A stretch of 64,000 bases of DNA, taken from the NCBI RefSeq assembly GCF_025506355.1, contig NZ_JANZYP010000045.1:1-64000 (forward strand). Reading direction: 5' to 3'. Under the pieces are notes generated by a model. That model did not search any database, was not told where the DNA came from, and worked only from the letters and a program-made list of their open reading frames with translations. Position numbers and translations under genes: made by a program. This document shows, one piece after another, positions 55,222 to 55,388 of the stretch. The stretch comes from Sphaerisporangium corydalis. Its GTDB lineage: Bacteria; Actinomycetota; Actinomycetes; Streptosporangiales; Streptosporangiaceae. How positions within the stretch are numbered: position 1 is the stretch's first letter; each line of letters starts with the position of its first letter.

Positions 55222-55388
55222 GGGCGCGGCGGTGCCTGACACATCGCCGCGCCCCTCCGAAGGGCGGATCGCGATGACGCCTGACACGTCATCACGCACC
55301 CCCCAGGGCGGAGTGCGGCGGCGCCTGACACGCCGTCGCACCCTCTCGAAGGACGGGGCGCGGCGGGCCTGACCCCCGCCGCGCCCCG
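55222..55388 (+). repeat. Four consecutive hairpins with a conserved CCTGACA loop
   Basis: Units recur every 44-45 bp. Each has the loop CCTGACA (CCTGACC in the last) at 55235, 55280, 55324 and 55368. The stems differ but pair: GGGCGCGGCG with CGCCGCGCCC (55222-55231/55245-55254, plus three inner pairs); GATGACG with CGTCATC (55273-55279/55287-55293); GTGCGGCGGCG with CGCCGTCGCAC (55313-55323/55331-55341, one G-U pair); and a perfect 14-bp stem (55354-55367/55375-55388). They fill the gap between GH48 and GH9. Confidence 0.85.

Follow-up and report, generated by a model that had tools for sequence, protein, structure and literature searches.

Stem-loops between cellulase genes are described for the cip-cel operon of Ruminiclostridium cellulolyticum, where intergenic structures, those of cel48F and cel9E among them, guide cleavage and shield transcript ends, as set out in parts of two papers (PMC4423207, PMC10311766). 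According to the same parts, cleavage is governed by the GC pairs of the stem and not by the loop, with which a role for the loop is still compatible. A second described form is the ANTAR target motif, for which 3-bp stems and six-nucleotide loops with A1 and G4 are given in the relevant section of its description (PMC3369931). The locus analysed here lies in a stretch of 64,000 nucleotides from Sphaerisporangium corydalis (hereafter the window), in which the interval between a GH48 and a GH9 cellulase gene contains an array of hairpins.

Pfam searches of the window identified genes for a LacI-family (CebR-like) regulator, a Ser/Thr kinase, GH5, an ice-binding-like protein, GH48, GH9, a second GH5 and GH10, and no plasmid or phage similarity was found in it. 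The ice-binding-like protein, which carries an Ig-like domain, is encoded inside the cellulase cluster at 49747-51168. CebR/CelR-type boxes, compared with CelR sites given in part of a published account (PMC3377646), were found before the regulator, before the first GH5 gene and at the GH48 promoter (Table 1). No such box with up to two mismatches was observed before GH9 in the window, nor was a promoter-like site observed before GH9 in a scan of 51900-58100. The inferred GH9 start codon, a CTG at 55437, follows GAGAGG, and relatives (for example L086 and L087) have an ATG near the same GAGAGG site.

Table 1 Positions of the genes, promoter-like site, regulator boxes and hairpins in the window.
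Feature	Position	Strand	Details
GH48 exocellulase gene (CBM2, Ig-like domain, GH48)	52310..55213	+	Pfam PF02011, PF00553, PF17957; start taken as ATG 52310
GH9 cellulase gene (GH9, CBM3, CBM2)	55437..57761	+	Pfam PF00759, PF00942, PF00553; start inferred
Promoter-like site TTGACA-16-CAGAAT upstream of GH48	52125..52152	+	Sole sigma-70-like match in the scan of 51900-58100
CebR/CelR-type box TGGGAGCGCTCCCA at the GH48 promoter	52159..52172	+	Box scan allowing up to 2 mismatches
Second CebR/CelR-type box, one mismatch	52287-52300		Box scan allowing up to 2 mismatches
Hairpin 1	55222..55254	+	13-bp stem, one G-U; loop CCTGACA 55235-55241; R2 (built without Sphaerisporangium) E=1.2e-7
Hairpin 2	55270..55296	+	7 bp + mismatch + 2 bp; loop CCTGACA 55280-55286; weakest unit
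Hairpin 3	55313..55341	+	11-bp stem, one G-U; loop CCTGACA 55324-55330; R2 E=1.3e-6
Hairpin 4	55354..55388	+	14-bp stem; loop CCTGACC 55368-55374; R2 E=1.4e-5; nearest to GH9

Four hairpins occupy the gap between the GH48 stop codon and the inferred GH9 start, spaced 45, 44 and 44 bp from loop to loop, as an initial annotation had claimed in describing four conserved-loop units with a 44-45 bp period. Folded singly, units 1 to 4 reached -27.4, -11.0, -21.7 and -35.4 kcal/mol; six of 200 shuffles folded as well as unit 2, and none of 200 did so for units 1, 3 and 4. The region as a whole gave a folding z of -4.27 (0/200 shuffles as good). That each stem is matched by its own complementary arm was borne out when arms were paired against arms: the 5' arms formed 11, 9, 11 and 11 pairs of 11 with their own 3' arms, and between 1 and 10 with those of other units. 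The 3' arm of unit 2 ties at nine pairs with the 5' arms of units 1 and 3 when G-U is counted, and with Watson-Crick pairs alone its own arm is ahead (nine against six). Since pairing is best with the own arm, the stem changes appear to be compensated and the units are not simple tandem copies.

The heptamer CCTGACA is not itself enriched in the window (6 occurrences against 7.5 expected). It forms the loop of three of the 97 window hairpins with 7-nt loops, and the other listed loops occur once each. No Rfam covariance model matched at E<=1 in 54900-55800, and no Rfam family reached its gathering score in the whole window. Equally, the array does not have the classical terminator form of a GC hairpin followed by a T-rich tail. 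GGTCAGG, the complement of the loop, occurs 34 times in the window against 16.6 in shuffles, and a search of the window with it yielded no candidate partner for the loop. A 14-mer of unit 2 had also been reported in front of GH48; it is indeed present at 52112-52125, just upstream of the -35 box, and its proposed link to the hairpins did not hold. This copy does not form a fold (-0.7 kcal/mol) and the loop letters CCTGACA are present in three of the seven Sphaerisporangium promoters examined (the window counted), on which grounds it was rejected as part of the hairpin element. The promoter 14-mer is probably a coincidence, unrelated to the hairpins.

In the genome of the window, a search by DNA similarity found the place of the array alone. 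The covariance model R1, which includes the window units, found no other such place among the 150 of 14292 candidates scored (next best 21.8 bits), and R2, built without any Sphaerisporangium sequence, recovered units 1 and 3 alone at E<=0.02 (150 of 16028 candidates scored). GCCTGACAC occurs 56 times in this genome, and the 52 sites outside the window have no comparable hairpin, with at most five uninterrupted pairs, or eight with one mismatch; many of these sites look like Ala-stop (GCC TGA), which is an uncounted impression. Similarly, no such hairpin with at least 11 pairs was seen in a sample of 799,579 bases of the 9.48-Mb genome, a non-random sample in that some contigs were picked for close GCCTGACCC pairs. 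The many copies across the genome that characterise dispersed (REP/MITE-like) repeats were not found. At 1501-1560 of locus L006, in the same genome, four copies of GCCTGACAC follow one another at 17-bp spacing and lack hairpin stems.

The corresponding gaps of other genomes were collected from GH48 neighbours in 80 named loci and in genomes of the family. A GH9 gene lies no more than 1.5 kb downstream in 72 of 128 loci with a GH48 C-terminus, and removal of eight duplicates and one gap shorter than 25 nt left 63 distinct gaps. Seven gaps are shorter than 60 nt; all seven are without the hairpin, and the five with a named source come from Nonomuraea. In several Nonomuraea the two genes abut or overlap, GH48 stop against GH9 start, which indicates that the pair can be an operon; no intergenic hairpin copy is present there. 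Of the 56 distinct gaps that measure 60 nt or more, 52 contain a strong hairpin (-22 kcal/mol or better) with CCTGAC at the loop. The four exceptions are L073 (CCTGATC) and L087 (CCCGACC), which differ by a single loop base, L106, in which the CCTGAC hairpin is interrupted by mismatches, and L105, which has none. Loops in the gaps are mostly of 7 nt (CCTGACC or CCTGACA), or of 9 nt (mostly CCCCTGACC), or consist of the 7-nt core within a mismatched collar, TCG-CCTGACC-CTT. The copy usually present is the GH9-proximal one, corresponding to hairpin 4 of the window, which has orthologues in other gaps; Sphaerisporangium species hold one to four units. The window's four-fold array would have arisen by tandem expansion, specific to its lineage, of the one GH9-proximal hairpin that other genera have. 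A T tail is missing from all 54 GH9-proximal hairpins looked at, the 8 nt after each containing 0-2 T.

The seven distinct gaps of one genus (g33) have a different layout, with the order GH48, a hairpin with a CCGGACC loop, a promoter-like site, a CebR box, the CCTGACC hairpin and GH9. A T-tailed hairpin follows the CCGGACC hairpin in the four of these gaps that were displayed in full. GH48 and GH9 look like separate units in these loci (L286-L293, L288 excluded), having between them a terminator-like tailed hairpin and a second CebR-box promoter; the arrangement implies that, where the operon is divided, the element remains with the ends of the mRNAs. In two genomes, G079 and G027 (L261 2063-3102; L244 reverse complement 1766-2849), the N-terminal part of GH48 alone is left and hairpins persist before and after GH9. 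At a 3-kb locus of a further genome, G051 (L223 1100-1900), where neither GH48 nor GH9 was seen, a CebR box is left together with two hairpins whose loops read CCTGGCC and CCTGACC. Downstream of GH48, L102 (about 7980-8170) and L091 (7880-7960) contain long G and C runs, possibly assembly errors at strong hairpins. Hairpins with ACCTGAC at Streptomyces GH48 loci were judged to be a different hairpin, as their GAC is able to pair within the stem.

Across 30 distinct GH9-proximal hairpins, the mean diversity of the seven loop-core positions is about 0.03 and that of the stem sides 0.35-0.38, and 351 of 360 stem cells are paired. In alignments A2, A3 and A4, whose rows were pre-chosen as hairpins and are in many cases related, so that counts are not independent events, no shuffle or slid control reached the covariation score or the count of cells with changes in both arms. 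Further pair types on A3, in which MAFFT misaligned six Sphaerisporangium rows and so lowered the pairing count, were matched by 9/500 shuffles, and doubly changed pairs on A4 by 1/500. A fairer test is to choose sites by loop letters alone: at least eight of ten flanking pairs formed at 51/68 distinct CCTGAC sites in the gaps and at 77/446 elsewhere in the same loci. When hairpins were chosen by stem alone in 36 named loci, CCTGACC was the commonest loop of strong 7-nt hairpins (12 distinct, with the complement GGTCAGG as its mirror; next at most 4), and CCCCTGACC was the top 9-nt loop (7 distinct). Under lax stem rules in the 80 named loci, CCTGAC ranks fifth of 120 permutations of its letters. 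G-U and A-C combinations in the stems number 33 and 25 (p = 0.36), which does not separate selection at the RNA level from selection at the DNA level.

The initial annotation had proposed a covariance-model search of related genomes, and the model used here was R2, whose training set consisted of GH48-GH9, GH6 and GH9 3' hairpins selected for their pairing. On the window, R2 ranks units 1, 3 and 4 first and misses unit 2 at E<=0.05; unit 2 is found by R1, a model that contains it. Over 295 genomes of the family R2 gave at least 82 matches at E<=5e-4, in 54 genomes of 12 of the 68 genera, with one to three matches per matching genome. These and the following counts are lower bounds, since 18-150 candidates were scored per genome and both models are weak for 9-nt loops. 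In a phylum scan with R2 (396 genomes, 18 candidates scored per genome listed), E<=5e-4 was reached in the genome of the window and two others. A class scan of 394 genomes with R1 found nine genomes at this level, seven of them in the family (the genome of the window counted), and the two matches outside it (L303, L304) were judged to be chance. The best reading is that the hairpin is a lineage-restricted element.

The great majority of the R2 matches (78 of 82) lie at cellulose or plant-polysaccharide gene sites, most of which are orthologues. They comprise 38 in GH48-GH9 gaps, 2 between a GH48 remnant and GH9, 1 at the site with a CebR box and hairpins where neither gene was seen, 20 located 3' of a divergent GH6 in the Nonomuraea group (g4; assigned by geometry), 3 that are 3' of GH9, 9 that are 3' of an AA10 lytic polysaccharide monooxygenase (LPMO) gene, 2 between a sugar-binding protein and GH39, 2 at the stop of a GH6-CBM2 gene and 1 that is 3' of a pectinesterase/pectate lyase gene; the other 4 are elsewhere. 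Pfam confirmed one of the 20 GH6 assignments and C-terminal sequence was checked in eight loci, six with hairpins; for AA10, one match was checked by Pfam and all nine by sequence motif, and a further AA10 gene (L382) was Pfam-checked. L365 and L368 were identified through their resemblance to L363 and L366. Four of the eight locus groups outside the R2 training set are at enzyme or sugar-uptake genes (AA10, binding protein/GH39, GH6-CBM2, pectinesterase) and four are not at enzyme genes. The identical loop core sits on different stems 3' of GH6, AA10 and pectinesterase genes and between the sugar-binding protein and GH39. Loop-conserved, stem-variable copies in other genomes were thus found. 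The initial annotation suggested that selection acts on a hairpin whose loop is fixed; this is supported by the orthologous gaps in many genera and by the same loop on unrelated stems at other enzyme genes.

In four Nonomuraea-group loci (L113, L114, L118, L233) two CCTGACC hairpins follow GH6, and a separate hairpin with another loop and a T-containing tail comes after them. L239 has another order, and two of the eight GH6 loci (L116, L117) are without the element. We also inspected GH6 3' ends more widely (30 loci obtained out of 43 matches, 29 readable): a hairpin stands beside the stop in one of the 29 (L328, Nonomuraea group), and the element is absent from the readable GH6 3' ends of genera outside this group. 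Eight of ten pairs form around a similar hexamer 114-234 nt away in three other GH6 loci, about the control level. R2 matches between E=5e-4 and 0.02 in 16 genomes lie at enzyme genes in two of eight cases and are mostly noise. In a first R1 scan (150 genomes, E<=0.02), single hairpins close to a stop codon or to coding sequence made up most of the inspected matches away from cellulases. In two Streptosporangium species, inverted repeats with CCCCTGACC loops lie in a reading frame beside the regulator (L100 2261-2333; L109 about 2213-2290); they are probably repeated coding sequence, the L100 frame having a Ser/Thr kinase-like start.

Our preferred reading, which we hold with about even confidence, takes the units as copies of one hairpin that acts in cis on mRNA, is restricted to this lineage and serves the processing or stability of transcripts; a putative factor may read its loop. 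Such an element would have a GC-rich stem, mostly of 11-17 bp, and a loop core 5'-CCUGAC[C/A]-3', and mRNAs for enzymes that degrade plant cell walls would carry it. Between GH48 and GH9 it would separate two co-regulated reading frames; the stems could block exonucleases and mark where a bicistronic mRNA is cut or protected, and shielding the 3' end of the GH48 mRNA and the 5' end of the GH9 mRNA would set the levels of the two enzymes. The invariant loop might be read by a putative trans factor, be it an RNA-binding protein, a nuclease or a small RNA. We infer transcription through the hairpins, their effect on stability or processing, and the loop-reading factor from sequence. Protein binding or mRNA stabilisation, as suggested by the initial annotation, would fit the same picture, and action as RNA rather than as a cruciform is tentatively favoured by position. 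Mycobacterial RNase E prefers to cut 5' of C according to part of one study (PMC10641625), and cutting by RNase E in the hairpin loop is a speculative possibility. A wider version is tentative and the less probable: a lineage-specific post-transcriptional regulon in which the CCUGACC loop of GH48, GH9, GH6, AA10 LPMO, pectin and xyloside mRNAs is recognised by a putative RNA-binding protein or small RNA that tunes the stability of these mRNAs jointly, above CebR control. Against the preferred reading, the GH48-GH9 units alone stand out in the genome of the window, and with one to three matches per genome a dedicated trans factor is not required. The absence of the element from GH6 3' ends of other genera and from the abutting Nonomuraea pairs, the neutral G-U and A-C counts, and the matches away from enzyme genes also count against it.

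A tandem tail-less terminator or attenuator of actinobacterial type after GH48, with a loop that is incidental or aids a termination factor, would suit the position of most element sites just 3' of a stop codon. Part of one report (PMC8355165) describes the proposal that hairpin clusters behind stop codons act as intrinsic terminators, and states that U trails are frequently missing in M. tuberculosis and in certain other bacteria, Streptomyces among them. We nevertheless regard termination as unlikely: GH9 in the window has neither a promoter-like site nor a CebR box before it and so seems to need read-through, and termination leaves the invariant loop unexplained. In g33, moreover, the hairpin lies in the GH9 leader past a promoter-like site and a CebR box and a separate T-rich-tailed hairpin follows GH48, just as the four GH6 loci named above carry their own tailed hairpin with another loop after the CCTGACC pair. 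These separate tailed hairpins, and the lack of a T tail in all 54 GH9-proximal hairpins, fit a processing or stability element better than a terminator. The leader position in g33, between promoter and start codon, and the conservation of the GH9-proximal copy would suit a 5'-leader element, read by a regulator and acting mainly on GH9 translation or transcription elongation, the other copies being analogous. This is distinctly unlikely, as the copies at AA10 (L370, L378, L382), pectinesterase (L364) and GH6 (L233) genes have their nearest downstream gene-like ORF on the opposite strand and thus no obvious gene to lead, although L378 also has a shorter same-strand ORF overlapping the opposite-strand one.

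The palindromes are perfect or near-perfect with a 7-bp spacer, as a cruciform, a protein-bound palindrome or a REP-like repeat without RNA action might be, and the G-U and A-C counts are neutral between RNA and DNA. Such a DNA-level element is nonetheless quite improbable: the invariant part is the spacer and not the arms, unlike a dimer operator, the element was not found dispersed in the genome (by similarity, by R1 and R2 among the candidates scored, or in the 0.8-Mb sample), and at those enzyme-gene sites that were inspected its loop lies on the mRNA strand. Palindromes can be perfected by template switching even where no selection acts. This could have paired the arms of a hairpin whose loop has no function, shared by descent and simply slow to change, and many rows of the alignments are close relatives. 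We consider this very improbable, because sites flanking the loop do change (inserts CC, TC, AC and CG; stem diversity at least 0.35) and the loop core hardly does, and because the identical core stands on unrelated stems at other genes.

If the preferred reading of a cis-acting mRNA hairpin is correct, an RNA sequence-structure motif marks plant-biomass-degrading genes in one bacterial family, with R2 as a ready model for it, and stem-loop control of cellulase stoichiometry, known from the clostridial cellulosome operon, would extend to free actinobacterial cellulases. It would also point to a so far undescribed loop-reading factor. We found no description of a CCUGAC- or CCUGACC-loop hairpin in searches of the open-licence literature on GH48, CebR and Streptosporangium cellulases.

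Compared with ANTAR targets, as far as the cited section describes them, the array shares several small hairpins with conserved loop bases and a G at loop position 4. It differs in having stems of 7-17 bp and a loop mostly of 7 nt with C1, and the core CCTGAC[CA] is not the hexanucleotide loop with A1 and G4 of that motif. Clusters of tail-less terminators resemble it in that GC-rich hairpins directly follow stop codons without T tails; here there are in addition a conserved loop, a GH9-leader position in g33 and separate tailed hairpins nearby. The likeness to cip-cel is closer on the points covered in the cited parts of those papers: the stem-loops lie between cellulase genes, including 3' of GH48 and GH9 genes, they mostly lack a U run as the array hairpins lack a T run, and they are orthologous across species, as are the hairpins here. 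An intergenic stem-loop in a cellulase cluster, 3' of GH48 or GH9 and with no following U run, is thus present in both. The evidence for one transcript is mixed, with no promoter-like site before GH9 in the window and abutting genes in several Nonomuraea on one side and a separate GH9 promoter-like site in g33 on the other. The cip-cel operon belongs to another phylum, and cleavage and stability were tested there, whereas the present hairpins are known from their sequence. Here, in contrast to cip-cel, one 7-nt loop is common to genes and genera and the units are tandemly amplified; this invariant loop goes beyond the cip-cel model and suggests a reader.
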